Origin: Pseudobdellovibrionaceae bacterium | GTDB taxonomy: Bacteria > Bdellovibrionota > Bdellovibrionia > Bdellovibrionales > Bdellovibrionaceae | Assembly: GCA_019637955.1 (NCBI GenBank) | Contig: JAHBUS010000012.1 | Coordinates: 1 to 64,000 of the forward strand | Direction: 5' to 3' | Length of the DNA stretch: 64,000 nucleotides | Shown here: in pieces, positions 1 to 19,814 of the stretch | How positions within the stretch are numbered: position 1 is the stretch's first letter | Layout of the letters: each line of letters starts with the position of its first letter | Program-made: the position numbers and the translations under genes | The notes under the pieces: generated by a model | Database searches by the model: none | What the model was told of the DNA's origin: nothing | The model's input: only the letters and a program-made list of their open reading frames with translations

Positions 1-2424
1 GGCCGCGCCGCCCGCAATGTGCAGGCGTCCTTGCGGACTGGTCGTGCCGATGCCGACGCTTCCGTCATTGCGCACTTTAAAAAGCTGCGTGCTGGCGCTG
101 TTGGTTATATTGAGCGCATCTTTGGTGGCATCCGCCGTGTTGCCCTTGATGCCAACTTGAATGTTCGAAGAGGCGCTCGTGCCAAAACCAGCGTAGACGC
201 CAACGGGAGTGGTGATGTGATTGGCAAACTGAATTTGGCTGGGGTTCACGGTGTCCTGACGGATGACCAGGCTATTGCTGCCGATGCGAAGATCGCCCGT
301 CACCTGAGCGTTGCCAACGACGTGAAGGTTGGCGCCGGGGCTGGCCGTGCCAATCCCGACAGATCCACCGCTCACCACGAGTTGATTTGTTCCCACCGCG
401 AGACCATTGCTCGGAAGCGTGAGCGCTCCGGTCATGGTGTCGCCAGCTTTAAGAACATAATCATTCAAGGCGGCCGTGCTGGCCTTGCTATTGAATGTCG
501 TCCAGTCAGTGGAGCTGAGATAACCATTGGTCGTTGCGCTGGCTTGAGCGATGGTGATCGCAGGAGTTGAGTTGTTATTTGTCACCGAGATCGGTGCCGA
601 ACCGGTGACGTTCGTGACGGTTCCACCGGAACCTGTCGCCGACACTTCGATGCCGCCCGCCGAGTGCGTGATGGTCACGCCCGCGCCGCCCGTGATGGAC
701 TTGTATTCCATCGAGGAGCCTGCGTTGTTAACGCCAAGGACCTGATTCGAGGTGCCAAGAGCCGTTAGGCCCGTTCCACCTTTGGTGGGATCGATGGTGG
801 GAAGACGAGCCGCATTGATGGTTCCCGACGTGATTTGAGCTCCGGCAATACCGATCGTGGTGCACGCAAAAGCATCTGTAATGGTGGACCACGTAAGTGT
901 CTGATCTGCACCGCAATTGGTGGCGAACTGTTGAAGACCAGCTTCGGTGCGAAGATCATCCACGCCAAAGTTTACCGCTTCAAACTGAGTTCCTGACCAA
1001 CGATAAACTTTCCCGGTGTCACCAACGGCCAGCGTACCCGCAGCCACGGGGTTGCCGCGAACGGCATTCACCGAAGGATTGGGATAGTTGCCACCGAGGT
1101 CACCGCCCGCAGAGCCTCCCGGAGCATTTGAAATCGAAGTCCAAGAAAGTTTGCCCGAAGCATCCGTTTGCAAGACTTGGCCGTTGGTTCCCAAGGCCGT
1201 TGGCAAGGTGAAGACCACTTGCGAACTCAAAGCCGCATCGGCAACGAACTCGACATAATTGGTCGTCGAAGGTTTATAAACGCGAAGCGCGTTCAAGCGT
1301 GCATCATTGGCGGTCACGGAATTGGTCGCGGTTAAATTTGCGCCCGCGATGTTGCCACTTGAAGTGATCGCGCCCGAGTTGATCGTCCCCGTGATCGAAA
1401 TGTTGCCTTCAATCGAAGAGCCATTCAAATGCGTCAGATTCGATCCATCCAAAACGGGGAGTTTGCCGCCGGTCTGCACCTGCACGATTTGCCCCGCGCC
1501 GGTTCCAACGTTCACGTTCAGCGTTCCGGTCGACGTGATCGAGCCACCGGGACCGGCGCCCACGTTAAGGCCCGTGCCCGCGGTCACCGACGTGATCCCC
1601 GCTCCGGCGACACCCAACGTTTGCGGGCCCAAATTGGATTGATACTTCAGTTGGTTGGAGGCCGTGTCGTACCAAATTTGTCCGGCGCTGGCGCTCGAGG
1701 CATTTCCAGAAACTCCAGGGACGGTGATCGTGTTGTTCGAACCGTTTTGCACGTAGAGGCTCGATGTTCCGCCGAGAAGCGCATTGAGAATCGGAAGCTG
1801 AGTCGTGTTGAACAGGGCTTCAAGGTGAGCCATGTCCACCCGGTTGGCGCCGGCATTGCTCACGTTCAGGATCTGGCTGCGGTCCAAGCCACCAATGCTT
1901 TCGGCGACCATGGCGCTCGGAACGGACGAGAGCGTGATGTCGGGTGCCAGAGTTTCAACGCCGCCCGTGGTGGGGCGGATCGAGACACGCAAGTAGCGGG
2001 CATCGCCATCGGCCGGCGTGTAACCGGCCAGACAGCGCGGGACCGCCGGAAAGTTGTTGAGCGTGTTGTTGAAAATCTTGTCCATCGAGTAGCCGGGATC
2101 ACCCGAAGTGCGCTTGCCGGTGAGATCCGGTGCGGCCGATCCCACCTTGAGCGAGAAGTAGCCGTTCGAGAGCTCGGTGTCGTAGCCTTGCTCCTCTTCG
2201 TAGAGAAGGCAGTTCTTACTCGGATTCAGAATTTGCAAAATAAAAACCAAGCCCGAATCACGAAGCGGCTGCGTGGTGCCTTTGCGGTACAGGCGTCCAT
2301 CCACGCTGGTGGCCTGCGGCTGCGCCGCAAGCGCCAAGGTCCCTAAAAAGAGCGAGGCGAAAACCAACCCTAAGGTTTCGCGAAGAAATTTAAAAAAAGA
2401 TCGTGAGTTCAGGGGTCTGTGCAT
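1..2424 (-). CDS. Secreted fibre / tail-fibre-like adhesin, 3' end outside window
   Basis: An open frame of 808 codons runs without a stop from an ATG at 2424 to the left edge, so the C-terminus is missing. The N-terminus (MHRPLNSRSFFKFL, then a hydrophobic stretch ending ALAAQ) is a signal peptide. An approximately 150-residue globular head follows (VDGRLYRKGT, then GYFSLKVGSAAPDLTG). After that come low-complexity Gly/Ser/Thr/Asn-rich repeats of phage tail-fibre type, such as GYLSSTDWTTFNSKA, KAGDTMTGALTLPSNG, VGIGTASPGANLHV and VGIGTTSPQGRLHI. Proteins with these repeats usually end in an intramolecular-chaperone peptidase S74 domain, which would lie off the window. This architecture matches the long trimeric prey-recognition fibres of Bdellovibrio. 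Surface adhesion is an inference. The Shine-Dalgarno site is weak. Confidence 0.85.
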   Translation of the reverse strand, partial: MHRPLNSRSFFKFLRETLGLVFASLFLGTLALAAQPQATSVDGRLYRKGTTQPLRDSGLVFILQILNPSKNCLLYEEEQGYDTELSNGYFSLKVGSAAPDLTGKRTSGDPGYSMDKIFNNTLNNFPAVPRCLAGYTPADGDARYLRVSIRPTTGGVETLAPDITLSSVPSAMVAESIGGLDRSQILNVSNAGANRVDMAHLEALFNTTQLPILNALLGGTSSLYVQNGSNNTITVPGVSGNASSASAGQIWYDTASNQLKYQSNLGPQTLGVAGAGITSVTAGTGLNVGAGPGGSITSTGTLNVNVGTGAGQIVQVQTGGKLPVLDGSNLTHLNGSSIEGNISITGTINSGAITSSGNIAGANLTATNSVTANDARLNALRVYKPSTTNYVEFVADAALSSQVVFTLPTALGTNGQVLQTDASGKLSWTSISNAPGGSAGGDLGGNYPNPSVNAVRGNPVAAGTLAVGDTGKVYRWSGTQFEAVNFGVDDLRTEAGLQQFATNCGADQTLTWSTITDAFACTTIGIAGAQITSGTINAARLPTIDPTKGGTGLTALGTSNQVLGVNNAGSSMEYKSITGGAGVTITHSAGGIEVSATGSGGTVTNVTGSAPISVTNNNSTPAITIAQASATTNGYLSSTDWTTFNSKASTAALNDYVLKAGDTMTGALTLPSNGLAVGTNQLVVSGGSVGIGTASPGANLHVVGNAQVTGDLRIGSNSLVIRQDTVNPSQIQFANHITTPVGVYAGFGTSASSNIQVGIKGNTADATKDALNITNSASTQLFKVRNDGSVGIGTTSPQGRLHIAGGAA

Positions 2425-14238: not shown

Positions 14239-15273
14239 TCAAAAGTAAACGTTCTGCTCGCCCCACTGCTGCGTGAGGCCGCGCACGTGCTGCAAAAGGG
14301 CTTGTGCGCGCGCCAAGAGCGACGACGCATCGGATTTCAGGCGAAGGGCCGTGATCAAGTCATTGCGTTCAGGTCCGCTCAAAAGATCAGCCAAACGCTG
14401 CACGCGCTGGATCTGCGCGCGGTCAAAGCGGCTGACAATTTTCAAGTACGTCGTGACCTGATTGGTTCCGCGCATCGACGCTCCGCCATTGTCGCGGGCG
14501 AAGAAGAACAGTTTGCCGTTGCCGTCGATCGAAGCCTCGACGTTGCCGCCACTCCAGCGGTCCCATTGTCCGCACAAGAGGTCCAGAACCATGATCTGCG
14601 AAAACTGGCGCGAGAGTTCAAGCTCGCTCTGCGTGGGCGTGCTTCCGTTTTTCGCCTTCACCCCTTTGAGTGACATTTCGCGAGTCGTGGGACGGGGGCC
14701 ATCGGCGCGGATAAATTGCGCGATGGGGTGCGCGCGGTTGATGGTGTTGGCATCGGGGTTCGCGACGTCCAAAGCCTCCCACTCATCGGTCTTGGGCGTG
14801 AGCACGCCCGCCAGTGAGTTGGGATTCGCCCGGATCTTTTCGATCAACTCGTCTTGATTTTCGCGGCGCCATTGATTGCGCTCGTTCGCGCTGGTGAGCA
14901 TGCCGTAGAAAATCTGCGTGGTGCGCGGCCCGATCGTGTAAGGAGCCGAAGGAACCACGAGGGCGCTCATGCGCAGAAACTGCGCCAGGCGGTGCGACAC
15001 CAGCTGAGCTTCCGAATTGGCGGCGCCGTTTGCGGGTAAGAACTTGCCGACCGACTTTCCGGCGGGGTCTTTGATTTTAAGCCCCAGCGACGTGCCGCCC
15101 GGTTTGTACTCAAGTTGGTAGGACGGGTCTTCAAGATTGAGCGCCGCCGCCTTGGCTTCGAAGGCCTGATCCTGCGCCAAAATTTGAAATTCTTCCGAGC
15201 GCACATCGCGGGCCAGGGCCGAGACCGAGCAGCCCGTCAGGGCGAGGAGGGTGAGGGTCCATCCGAGTTTCAT
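14239..15273 (-). CDS. Kinase-like (CotH/Fam20/HipA-type) lipoprotein
   Basis: About 344 residues. The signal peptide ends LLALTGC, a lipobox, so the product should be anchored outside the inner membrane. The body has features of atypical protein kinases: a glycine/lysine beta unit (GGTSLGLKIKDPAGKSVGKF), a helix (EAQLVSHRLAQFLRMS), a catalytic-loop-like LLCGQWDRWSGGN with Asp and Asn, and a metal-binding-like FFARDNGG. CotH-type kinases are frequent neighbours of VTC-domain and DUF4956 genes. It is the last gene of that operon here, 22 bases after VTC. AAAGGA precedes the ATG at 15273; another ATG lies at 15291. Kinase activity is inferred. Confidence 0.72.
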   Translation of the reverse strand: MKLGWTLTLLALTGCSVSALARDVRSEEFQILAQDQAFEAKAAALNLEDPSYQLEYKPGGTSLGLKIKDPAGKSVGKFLPANGAANSEAQLVSHRLAQFLRMSALVVPSAPYTIGPRTTQIFYGMLTSANERNQWRRENQDELIEKIRANPNSLAGVLTPKTDEWEALDVANPDANTINRAHPIAQFIRADGPRPTTREMSLKGVKAKNGSTPTQSELELSRQFSQIMVLDLLCGQWDRWSGGNVEASIDGNGKLFFFARDNGGASMRGTNQVTTYLKIVSRFDRAQIQRVQRLADLLSGPERNDLITALRLKSDASSLLARAQALLQHVRGLTQQWGEQNVYF

Positions 15274-15295
15274 GAAAAATCCTTTCATCAATGTT

Positions 15296-16099
15296 TTATC
15301 TTAAAAATGAAGTTTGAATGCGGCCGCCGGCGAAGTCCTCGAAGCCCTGCGGTGAGTAGCACTCGCGCATGCTGCCTTCAAATTTCGAAAACCCGCGCCG
15401 GACCAGATCAAAGCGTTTGATCAGATCCACCATCCAAACCGGGATCTTGCGTTCGCATTTGAGCTCCAAAATCACGTTCACGCCCGGCATGCCGAAGGTG
15501 GCCGGATGGTCATAATTGAGCATCTCCTCTTCGCGAGGGATGACATCGTAACCCGTTTCCATGCGGTAGCGCAGGCTTCGGTCAAACGTGATCCGGGCGT
15601 AATCGTCGACGGTCGAGAGGTAAGCCTTGCGCCGGTACTGGGTTAAGATCATCGGGCTGGCGCCGTAGGTGCTGACCAGACCCATGAAGTGCATCAAGTG
15701 AGGATCTTCAGTGGGGTCAAAGTCTTTGATGCTCTCGGGTTTGAGAAAGAGATCGCCCCAGTTTTCGAACGGGACCCGGCCCCGCCGCTTTTTCGAAAAC
15801 TCAGCCGTCTTTTCTTTCGTCTCGAAATAATAGGGAGGCTTCGGGTTGTCGCCGTAGGACCGCACGCGCAGGCTCATCTTTCCGGTCAAATTTTCTTTGG
15901 CGCGGATGAAATGGTAATTGGGCGTCTCAAAATACAGACTGTTGATCGTGTAGAAGTGGTCGGGAGAGATCTGCGAGTAGTAATCCATGTCGCAAAACGC
16001 TTCGACGTAGCGGGAGATCGGCTCGACCATCGAAAACGGAATGAGATACTTCAGTTCGTACCGTTCCAGAACCAAGGGAGAAACGGGACCCACCGCCAT
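15296..16099 (-). CDS. VTC-domain polyphosphate polymerase-like protein
   Basis: A 267-residue protein that is one VTC domain, the tunnel-shaped catalytic domain of eukaryotic Vtc4 that builds polyphosphate from ATP. Basic and acidic tunnel residues are visible: LERYELKYLIP, LRVRSYGD, YFETKEKT, KKRRGRVPF, LTQYRRKAYL, RITFDRSLRYR and the metal-ligand strand VILELKCERK. There is no signal peptide, so it acts in the cytoplasm. Its ATG overlaps the TolC-like gene's stop (TAATG), so it is translationally coupled. Polymer synthesis is inferred from the family; the product could be polyphosphate or a related polymer. Confidence 0.9.
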   Translation of the reverse strand: MAVGPVSPLVLERYELKYLIPFSMVEPISRYVEAFCDMDYYSQISPDHFYTINSLYFETPNYHFIRAKENLTGKMSLRVRSYGDNPKPPYYFETKEKTAEFSKKRRGRVPFENWGDLFLKPESIKDFDPTEDPHLMHFMGLVSTYGASPMILTQYRRKAYLSTVDDYARITFDRSLRYRMETGYDVIPREEEMLNYDHPATFGMPGVNVILELKCERKIPVWMVDLIKRFDLVRRGFSKFEGSMRECYSPQGFEDFAGGRIQTSFLR

Positions 16100-17328
16100 T
16101 AGAGAATCCTCTTGGCGGTCTTCGAAAGGTGATTGGACTCGGGCGCCGAAGCGATGGATGAGGATTCATGCAAGTACTTGATGTAGAGCGCGCGGATCCG
16201 GAACTCCAGATCCAACAAGTGTTCGCGGCTTTCGAGCCATCCGCGCTGCAGGTCCAGCGCGAGCATCGGGTCTTGGCCCGCGATGGCGCTACTGGCCCGG
16301 CGAAGTTCATCGGGATTCATGCGAGACGTCTCGCGCATTGATTTGTGCAAGTCCAAGAGCGTGCGCAGTTCGGTCACGGTATTTTTGTAATCGCGGTCCG
16401 AAAGAGCGGTGGTTTCGCGCGATTTGTTGCGTTCGCGCAGCATTTTGATTCGCTTGTCGACGGCCGAGAGGTCGGGCGCACCCGCGAACGGGAGATTGAT
16501 GGCGACTTCGACCCCGTAAACCTTTTCGCCCTTGTCATCCTTCATCGAGACTTCGATGTGTTCGAGCCATTTCTCGTCGCGGGCGCGGTCGTACTGCAAG
16601 GCCGACTGCGATTTTTCAAGATCGGCGAGAACAACTTGATTTGTCAGCGTTTGCTCGAGGCGCTTGTCGGCGGCTCCGTCGAATTTCGTGCGGATGTCGT
16701 CGATCGAAGCCAGATCTGTGAGATCGAATTGGTCGATCCCGCCCAATTGCAGGTCGCTGAGTTCGCTCTGCGTGTTGCTGTAATCGCGCTGGATGTCGGC
16801 GATCTTCAGGTCGATCTTGTCCAGATCGGTTTTGGCTTTGAGGTAGGATTTCAGTTCGGTGCGGCTTTTCTGGGCCGCGTACGAAAGGGCTTTCGAAGCG
16901 CGGCGGCTCACCTGCGAGAGCTGATCGGCCATCGCCTTTTTCTCTTTGGCTAGAGTCAGCCGCGCGATCAGGTCGTAGCGGGCCACCAGCATCTTTGAGA
17001 GGGCCTCGCTCAGGGCGGCCTCTTCGTTTTTTTCGAGCGCGCGCTGAAAACGCGAGCTGGCGACGTGTTCGGAGTACCCCTTCGGGTACAAACGCAGACC
17101 CACTTTGACGTCTTGCTGGTTCAGTTCGCCGCGGTCAAACCGGATGTCGGCTTTTTCCAGTGGATTCAGGCTCGACGCGTCCTTCGTCAGGCGCACGGCC
17201 TCTTGTTGGTTGGCGATTTGCGGATCTTTCCAGGCCGTCTTTAAAATGTCCTCGGGCGAGGCGGCCCAAAGGGGCGCCTGCACGAGCGAAAGGCCGGCAA
17301 AGAGAAGGGCGGCGGTCTTACTTTTCAT
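16099..17328 (-). CDS. TolC-like outer-membrane efflux protein
   Basis: A 409-residue protein with signal peptide (MKSKTAALLFAGLSLVQAPLWA) and long alpha-helical coiled-coil stretches (ALSEALSKMLVARYDLIARL; KKAMADQLSQVSRRASKAL), the layout of an outer-membrane efflux protein. It is somewhat divergent from canonical TolC: the beta-barrel segments are short and hard to see apart from KVGLRLYPKG and YGVEVAINLPFAG. It overlaps the adaptor gene upstream by 11 bases and the VTC gene downstream at TAATG. It likely forms the outer-membrane exit of the operon's machine. Confidence 0.8.
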   Translation of the reverse strand: MKSKTAALLFAGLSLVQAPLWAASPEDILKTAWKDPQIANQQEAVRLTKDASSLNPLEKADIRFDRGELNQQDVKVGLRLYPKGYSEHVASSRFQRALEKNEEAALSEALSKMLVARYDLIARLTLAKEKKAMADQLSQVSRRASKALSYAAQKSRTELKSYLKAKTDLDKIDLKIADIQRDYSNTQSELSDLQLGGIDQFDLTDLASIDDIRTKFDGAADKRLEQTLTNQVVLADLEKSQSALQYDRARDEKWLEHIEVSMKDDKGEKVYGVEVAINLPFAGAPDLSAVDKRIKMLRERNKSRETTALSDRDYKNTVTELRTLLDLHKSMRETSRMNPDELRRASSAIAGQDPMLALDLQRGWLESREHLLDLEFRIRALYIKYLHESSSIASAPESNHLSKTAKRIL

Positions 17329-19141
17329 TTTTCTTGGCCGGGGCCTTCACGGCATTTTGGAGGGAGAGGCGTGTGAATTTGGCGGTTTCGTCCTTGAGGT
17401 CGAAAGCGACGAAGAGCGAGCTGTCTTTGGTGTCGAGCGCGAGCCCTTCGGGTTTAAGCCCCTTGAACTCGCGGATCAGTTCGGGCGTGACCACACCCTG
17501 GTTCTCCTGAAGGCGCCAAACGGCCCCGCAGTTTTCGTCGTCGCAGACGGTGGCCGCGTACAGGCGCCCTTTGATCTTGATCAAGTCGCTGAGGCGCTGA
17601 CTCTGCCCTTGGTTTTTGCCGAAATCCAAGGCCTTCCAAAGAGCGACGTTCTCGCTCTTGAGAGTCTTGGTTTTCAAGAGCGCATCGACGCCCTTGACCA
17701 CCACGATGGCGGTTTTGTCACCCTCGAGGAAGGGCTCTTTAAAGCCGAGATAAAGATCGCCGCCATCAACGAAGTGGCTCTCGATTTCAAAGTCGTCTTC
17801 GTCCGCGGACTTGAGCAGAGCCTGCAAAGCTTTATCTTGACCGGCTTTGATCGCCTTGATGAGCAAAGGTTTGAGTTCGACTTGGCCCACGACCGAGAGG
17901 TCCAGTCCCGAGCGCTTGATTTCGACAAAGAGATTTCGTTCGGACTTTTCTTTGCCTTTTTTGGTCAGGCCTTGCGACGCGAGAATGTAAATCGAATCGC
18001 CGCTTTGGCTGATCGACTCGAGGTCCGAAATTTTGTCAAGGCCCGCGACCGTCAGGACTTGGTCATCCACTTTGCCGTCCCGGTCGGCCAAAAACAGGGT
18101 CGCGCTCTTTTTCTTGTCGGTGTCGTCGCTGACGATCAGGTATTTCTTTAAATCCTCCAGGTACAAAACGCCCGAAGGCTCGAACGAATAGCGTCGGCCC
18201 AAGCCCGAAGGCAGGTGCATGGCCTGAGGAGCCATCTCGGGCTCGGCAATCGCCGCCGCGCTCGCGGTTTCGGTTGCCGCCACCGCGATCGGAAAGCTGA
18301 AGAGTTCAAACTTGGGTTTGATTTGAACTTTTTCACCCAAAAGCAGGCCGTTTTGCGAGGGGATTTCGACCACGACTTCGCGGCCCCAAATCTGAACGTT
18401 CGGAAAGTGCATCAGGCGCGGGGGCATCAGGATGATGCGCGAGCCGACGCTGACGATCTTGCCTTGCAAAGTGGCGTGGCCGCGCGTGAGCGGAACCACC
18501 GACACGGTTTTGCCGATCTCGAGTTTGGTTTGCAAATTCTCATGAACGAAGCCCTCGACATAGGAGGGGTTCGCGGGCGAGAGCGTGAGCACACTCGTGA
18601 ACGCGGGAACCTTCTCGCCTTTTTTGAAATTCACGGCGCCGACGATCCCATCGACCTCGGCGAAAACGTAAAGATTCTTCTTTTGCAGCTCGAGGTACTC
18701 GATCTCTTGGCCCAGGTCTTCGATGTCGACCGCGAGCGGGTCGGCGAGGTCAACGCTCGACGAGTTGCTCACGATCGAGTTCAGGTGCTGACGCACTTTC
18801 ATCTCGGATTGCAGCTTCGCCATTTGCGATCTTGCCAGGCGCAGGCGTGAATTCAGCTCGGACTGATTGAGCTCGATCAAGAGATCGCCTTTTTTGACCA
18901 TCTGTCCCGCCAGGACGTGGATGCGTTTGATCTCGACCGGCGATTCGAAATTGACTTGCAGTTCGCGCGAATCGGCGACGCCCAAAAAGCTCATGGACTC
19001 GGAGCCCATGTAGAAGCTCAAGGCGACCACGCCGGCCAAGCAGGCGGCCCAGACCATGGCCATGTAGCGGTTGTCGGTCCCGACGATGTCTTCTTGAATA
19101 ATCGTGATGAGTTTTTTGATGGATTTCACGTCAGACCTCAA
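17318..19141 (-). CDS. HlyD-like adaptor fused to a beta-propeller-like domain
   Basis: A 607-residue inner-membrane-anchored periplasmic protein. A single helix lies near residues 27-45 (MAMVWAACLAGVVALSFYMG). A HlyD/membrane-fusion part follows: the lipoyl half VEIKRIHVLAGQMVKKGDLL, a coiled-coil hairpin (LNSRLRLARSQMAKLQSEM) and the second half VDGIVGAVNFKKGEKVPAFT. After about residue 300 comes an approximately 300-residue domain with repeated blade-like strands (GVLYLEDLKKYLIVSDD; DLESISQSGDSIYILAS; PEGLALDTKDSSLFVAF), like SdiA-regulated or esterase-like-phytase propellers. This fusion is unusual. It overlaps neighbours on both sides by 11 bases, so translation is coupled. Confidence 0.8.
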   Translation of the reverse strand: MRSDVKSIKKLITIIQEDIVGTDNRYMAMVWAACLAGVVALSFYMGSESMSFLGVADSRELQVNFESPVEIKRIHVLAGQMVKKGDLLIELNQSELNSRLRLARSQMAKLQSEMKVRQHLNSIVSNSSSVDLADPLAVDIEDLGQEIEYLELQKKNLYVFAEVDGIVGAVNFKKGEKVPAFTSVLTLSPANPSYVEGFVHENLQTKLEIGKTVSVVPLTRGHATLQGKIVSVGSRIILMPPRLMHFPNVQIWGREVVVEIPSQNGLLLGEKVQIKPKFELFSFPIAVAATETASAAAIAEPEMAPQAMHLPSGLGRRYSFEPSGVLYLEDLKKYLIVSDDTDKKKSATLFLADRDGKVDDQVLTVAGLDKISDLESISQSGDSIYILASQGLTKKGKEKSERNLFVEIKRSGLDLSVVGQVELKPLLIKAIKAGQDKALQALLKSADEDDFEIESHFVDGGDLYLGFKEPFLEGDKTAIVVVKGVDALLKTKTLKSENVALWKALDFGKNQGQSQRLSDLIKIKGRLYAATVCDDENCGAVWRLQENQGVVTPELIREFKGLKPEGLALDTKDSSLFVAFDLKDETAKFTRLSLQNAVKAPAKKNEK

Positions 19142-19814
19142 TGATCGAGTCTTGCATCATCAGGTTGACGCCCTTGGCGCCCGGAACCTTCTGCAATGAA
19201 GACAGCATCGAATGGTTGGTGGTTTTGCCTTTGAACTTCAATTGATAGGCGTAGTCGAGAAGATCGCCTTGGCCGATTTCGCGGACCGAGATCATCGCGA
19301 AGTGTTTGCAGTTTTCGTTCAGCACCTTCTCGAGTTCACGCACGTTTTCGTCTTCGCGCTTCAAATGCAGGCGCAAGAGGGCGTCGAACTGGGGACCGTG
19401 GGCGAAGGGCGTCTTGGCCAACACCAGCGTCGAAGCCACAAAGCACATCGCCCCGATGGTGGCGATGGCGTAGGCGTGAACGCCGGCCGCGAGTCCGATC
19501 GCGAGTGAAGCGAAGATAAAGAACATGTCGCGGGGGTCTTTGATATTGGTGCGAAAGCGCAAAATCGAAATGGCGCCGATCATGCCGATCCCGCGCGCGA
19601 CATTGTCGCCGATCGCCTGCATCGCGGTGGCCGTCAGGATCGGGCAGAGCACCAAGCAGTGCAGAAAGTTTCGCGAGTACGACAAACCTTGAAAAGTTTT
19701 AACGTACAAGACGGCGATCACGGTGCCGAGAACGAAAGACAGCAGAAACGCGTAGAACACCGACAGGATTGTCGGGTTGGCCATGGATGTGCTGAGCACA
19801 TTAAAATCAAGCAT
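19131..19814 (-). CDS. DUF4956 membrane protein, first gene of the VTC operon
   Basis: A 227-residue protein. The N-terminal two thirds has four or five membrane helices, with the family's conserved core (GDNVARGIGMIGAISILRFRTNIKDPRDM, given here as GMIGAISILRFRTN and KDPRDM). A cytoplasmic C-terminal ferredoxin-like domain ends with PGAKGVNLMMQDSIIEV. DUF4956 proteins commonly neighbour VTC-domain genes in bacteria, and their biochemical role is unknown. GGGGAG lies eight bases before the ATG. The 3' end overlaps the adaptor gene by 11 bases. A promoter is expected in 19815-19933 but no clear boxes were found. Confidence 0.88.
   Translation of the reverse strand: MLDFNVLSTSMANPTILSVFYAFLLSFVLGTVIAVLYVKTFQGLSYSRNFLHCLVLCPILTATAMQAIGDNVARGIGMIGAISILRFRTNIKDPRDMFFIFASLAIGLAAGVHAYAIATIGAMCFVASTLVLAKTPFAHGPQFDALLRLHLKREDENVRELEKVLNENCKHFAMISVREIGQGDLLDYAYQLKFKGKTTNHSMLSSLQKVPGAKGVNLMMQDSIIEV

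Follow-up and report, generated by a model that had tools for sequence, protein, structure and literature searches.

A contig-end gene fragment assigned to the mosaic adhesive trimer family in a relative of Bdellovibrio

The MAT fibres of Bdellovibrio and the gene at the contig end

The mosaic adhesive trimers (MATs) of Bdellovibrio bacteriovorus HD100 are the closest described relatives of the fibre considered here. They have been shown on the surface of the predator, they trimerise, and the S74 domain of HD100 MATs cuts itself at its serine (PMC10769870). The ligand of one tip is also known, that of Bd2439, which binds GlcNAc (PMC10769870).

The DNA analysed here, referred to as the window, is a stretch of 64,000 nucleotides (C4:1-64000) from a 3.77-Mb genome in 14 contigs (G000). 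On its minus strand, from 2424 to 1, runs an open frame of 808 codons without a stop, which starts with an ATG at 2424 and is still open at base 1; the probability of such a stop-free run by chance at the base composition of the window is ~8e-14. A preliminary description of this DNA had proposed a long secreted fibre with a head and a repeat shaft, and the 808-codon frame, the signal peptide and the motifs that it named are all present (Table 1). It was also right that the gene is cut at the left. The window edge is not an arbitrary cut there: contig C4 ends at base 1, and it is this end, not the way the window was chosen, that truncates the fibre gene.

The signal peptide, judged by eye, is of the classical type, with a charged start, a hydrophobic core and an ALA|AQ boundary. 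The shaft is common to paralogues of the same genome. As Tandem Repeats Finder reported no DNA tandem array in the fibre gene, its 'repeats' are degenerate modules at the protein level, and they show mainly on comparison with the paralogues.

Table 1. Features of the fibre gene, in window positions.
Feature	Position	Strand	Basis
Partial CDS assigned to the MAT fibre family, N-terminal 808 aa, open at contig end	1..2424	-	
Signal peptide, aa 1-34, cleavage near the ALA/AQ boundary (ALA|AQ)	2323..2424	-	by eye from translation
MAT N-terminal head, aa 39-179, with conserved C72/C131	1888..2310	-	NF053851 match, profile search, alignments, AlphaFold2 model
Second conserved element 3' of the head, aa 201-225, LEALFNTTQLPILNALLGGTSSLYV	1750..1824	-	alignment
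Repeat shaft, aa 226-808, Ser/Thr/Gly/Asn-rich	1..1749	-	translation and paralogue comparison
GYLSSTDWTTFNSKA shaft motif, aa 634	481..525	-	translation, paralogue comparison
First VGIGTASP motif, aa 689	316..360	-	translation
Second such motif, VGIGTTSPQGRLHI, aa 790, at contig end	16..57	-	translation

Family assignment, head domain and proposed function

The assignment to the MAT family is carried by the N-terminal region. Residues 26-184 match the NCBIfam model NF053851 (Bdello_MAT_N), which stands for the mosaic adhesive trimer family chimeric fiber protein, with 88.5 bits (E 4.1e-25), above the curated cut-off of 60 bits. Together with the homology of the head to those of HD100 MATs, this match bears out the family named in the preliminary description, and it is nearly certain that the window gene is the N-terminal part of a MAT fibre in a genus of the Bdellovibrio family other than Bdellovibrio. 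The fibre is an additional member of an already known family, and four features that go with membership are found: a signal peptide, a beta-rich domain directly after it, a phage-fibre-like shaft and several genomic copies. The window fragment alone gave no match in PDB, Pfam or PHROG.

The distribution of the head was surveyed with profiles. One built only from the five related heads of this genome had matches in 48 of 59 relatives, including 16 loci in the genome labelled G036, in which a broad profile (36 heads) found exactly 21 heads; 21 MATs have been published for HD100 (PMC10769870). The C-terminal ends of an 843-aa and a 627-aa MAT of G036 match PDB entries 8okw (691-843) and 8oks (516-627), respectively. 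Because these residue ranges are those of the constructs published for Bd2734 and Bd2740 (PMC10769870), G036 was identified, from its sequence, as HD100. The window's genome belongs to the same family as HD100 and to a different genus. In a scan of genome contigs, the heads of this genome retrieved no relative and HD100-type heads retrieved 34, and the same head is encoded in named Bdellovibrio and Bdellovibrionaceae records. Beyond the head, two paralogues have C-terminal halves that match 8ond, the solved bd2133 shaft (3.6e-11 and 2.7e-9). This fibre carries the MAT prey-recognition family into a further genus of the Bdellovibrio family, where its heads form a distinct subgroup.

The window protein has the conserved type of beta-rich domain, which is ~130 aa long and follows the signal peptide directly. 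Two cysteines, C72 and C131 of the window protein, are among the residues invariant in 36 heads and likely form a disulphide. An AlphaFold2 model computed for a 263-residue fragment from 32 alignment rows places strands over aa 39-165; blocks with pLDDT above 90 extend over fragment residues 21-70 and 121-140, and the model as a whole, which joins confident strands to a poorly resolved insertion, has a pTM of 0.52. Foldseek searches with the head model against PDB and BFVD returned no match at E <= 0.001, and a profile search of the head against PDB sequences returned nothing. VIA-align yielded FN3/Ig-like domains at Z 6-7.4; as none of them stands out, these matches support the general sandwich arrangement only, and the head is predicted to be an Ig/FN3-like beta sandwich with the poorly resolved insertion. 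The LEALFNTTQLPILNALLGGTSSLYV element that follows is shared between MATs of this genome and many further ones from the Bdellovibrionota.

By analogy with the HD100 family, the window protein would be exported and would trimerise along its shaft, the conserved head would hold it at the cell surface, and a projecting C-terminal tip would bind a target cell through its glycans or other epitopes. An S74 domain, where present, would aid folding of the trimer and cleave itself off. That the bacterium itself is a predator may be presumed from kinship only. A fibre of this type could instead have a non-predatory use, for example attachment to surfaces or in biofilms, in a relative that perhaps does not enter prey. 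The occurrence of the head in many genera and families throughout the order would accord with this; the only functional data, however, come from HD100 and link MATs to predation (PMC10769870), which makes such a use rather unlikely.

Paralogues, broken contigs and the missing tip

With the broad profile, eight clear MAT heads were found in the window's genome, five of them closely related to each other. N-terminal fibre halves terminate at the right ends of contigs C1 and C14 and at the left ends of C2 and C4, the last being the window gene, and C-terminal halves start at C1-left, C3-left, C7-right and C11-right; one complete paralogue, of ~2,150 aa, lies on C2. In all, 10 of the 28 contig ends fall inside fibre genes (C1L, C1R, C2L, C3L, C4L, C6R, C7R, C11R, C12R and C14R). 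The assembly thus breaks at repeat shafts. MAT counts taken from draft genomes are therefore probably too low and are best read as lower bounds. The break of the assembly within the fibre's repeats is also why the window fibre lacks its tip.

Further observations were made on these contigs. The right ends of C6 (L031:3498-5000) and C12 (L036:3518-4999) hold two further fibre C-halves, whose ends are GHTH-rich and tail-collar-like. The two share an identical stretch of 57 bases, and their N-ends were not assembled. Contig C1 also encodes a small secreted protein that consists of Cys-rich repeat units of the kind YxxCRxxGFDHASCxxQ (L009:7026-7559).

The contig end might mark a collapsed repeat, or the gene might be broken just beyond it, so that the fragment would belong to a truncated or misassembled gene. 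The number of contig ends in fibre genes would fit this reading, as would the start of two C-half contigs, C1-left and C7-right, with almost the same 106 bases, as at an assembly-graph repeat. The 808 codons are intact, however, and a complete paralogue exists on C2, which makes this explanation quite improbable.

The N-terminal part of a MAT fibre is the preferred reading, and the question of its tip was approached through the paralogues. S74 domains with SDxxxK end those on C2, C7 and C11, whereas the MAT pieces on C1 and C3 end in other domains, C1-left and C3-left being without S74; the C1-left half contains an internal C1q-like domain. The preliminary view that a repeat region of this kind tends to end in S74 was too strong in view of C1 and C3 and of HD100, where 8 of the 21 MATs have no S74 (PMC10769870). 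Since both classes of tip occur among the paralogues, the window copy could have either, an S74 end being possible and not implied.

Candidate partners were compared with the window's end. The window copy has already passed the point of the shaft at which the C3 and C11 halves begin, and a join of C1-right with C1-left would give a circle. Exact matching showed no overlap between the window end and any contig end. By exclusion, and assuming that no pieces went unassembled, the C1-left half, which lacks S74, can tentatively be proposed as the tip of the window fibre. Marker synteny in the relatives supported no pairing of N-halves with C-halves; in a single genome (G017), the thioredoxin-like gene adjoins the C11 marker, but in another orientation.

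Genomic neighbours and comparison with known systems

Least probable, and very unlikely, is that the gene encodes a phage or prophage tail fibre that resembles MATs only through common shaft modules: residues 649-807 do match cyanophage tail fibres (~31% identity), the C-halves of paralogues match many PHROG tail-fibre families and S74 is a phage domain, but the phage matches are limited to the shaft, the window protein has a signal peptide, its head was not found, at the sensitivity of the scan, in 2.9 million viral contigs scanned with two different profiles, the same head is found on dispersed chromosomal paralogues, and the right flank (thioredoxin, MerR, MauE/DoxX, KhpA-like KH, glyoxalase, MAPEG) is ordinary chromosome with no phage genes on that side, the left flank lying beyond the contig end. 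Farther along the window, at 14239-19814, the minus strand carries a run in which three kinds of protein were recognised by eye: one with a VTC-like domain (15296-16099), one that is membrane-fusion-like (17318-19141) and a membrane protein of DUF4956-like type (19131-19814). The run may be a cluster related to polyphosphate or CotH.

Some other MAT genes, in several genera, have a FecR/beta-barrel plus SpoIIE-phosphatase pair as neighbours. Both fibre genes on C2 stand head-to-head, ~125-165 bp apart, with a gene for a FecR-domain protein, which is followed by one for a HAMP-SpoIIE protein (L011:1-5055, L012:4476-15434). The FecR-domain protein ends in a probable outer-membrane beta-barrel (by eye; no Pfam match). 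The same trio is present in a genome of another family (G045, contig C2, L078:1734-9432), and looser MAT/FecR/SpoIIE arrangements are found in G047, G052, G040, G050 and G008. Over 13 genomes, 6 of 17 FecR loci, not all of them independent, have a MAT gene at a distance of no more than 5 kb, where 0.5 would be expected. No MAT adjoins the FecR-SpoIIE pair of HD100 (L182:7195-11314), and the window fibre gene has no FecR/SpoIIE neighbour. The tie between the pair and MATs is an association by position only. It is doubtful that, in this lineage, the FecR-barrel protein is the surface anchor of the MAT head and the HAMP-SpoIIE phosphatase a switch for fibre display; the FecR-barrel/SpoIIE neighbour is nonetheless a candidate lead on how MAT heads are anchored.

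With phage fibres that carry S74, the chaperone of endosialidase, such as the T5 L-shaped fibre and the K1F endosialidase, the fibres of this genome have shaft modules in common and, in some paralogues, S74 itself. Those phage fibres are not known to have a secretion signal or a MAT head. As for the head of the window protein, no difference was found in the domain itself when aa 26-184 were compared with Bdello_MAT_N (NF053851). The 21 MATs of HD100, among them Bd2133, Bd2439, Bd2734, Bd2740, Bd1334 and Bd3182, are built like those of this genome, with a signal peptide, a conserved N-terminal domain and a repeat shaft, and in both genomes the paralogues carry S74 or other tips. In length, the complete C2 paralogue (~2,150 aa) exceeds the ~1,000 aa quoted as typical of HD100 MATs. 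Identity to the window head is roughly 26-32% for the HD100 heads in the alignment, compared with 72-73% for its closest paralogues in the same genome, and the heads of this genome are, as judged by sequence, a subgroup distinct from those of HD100.
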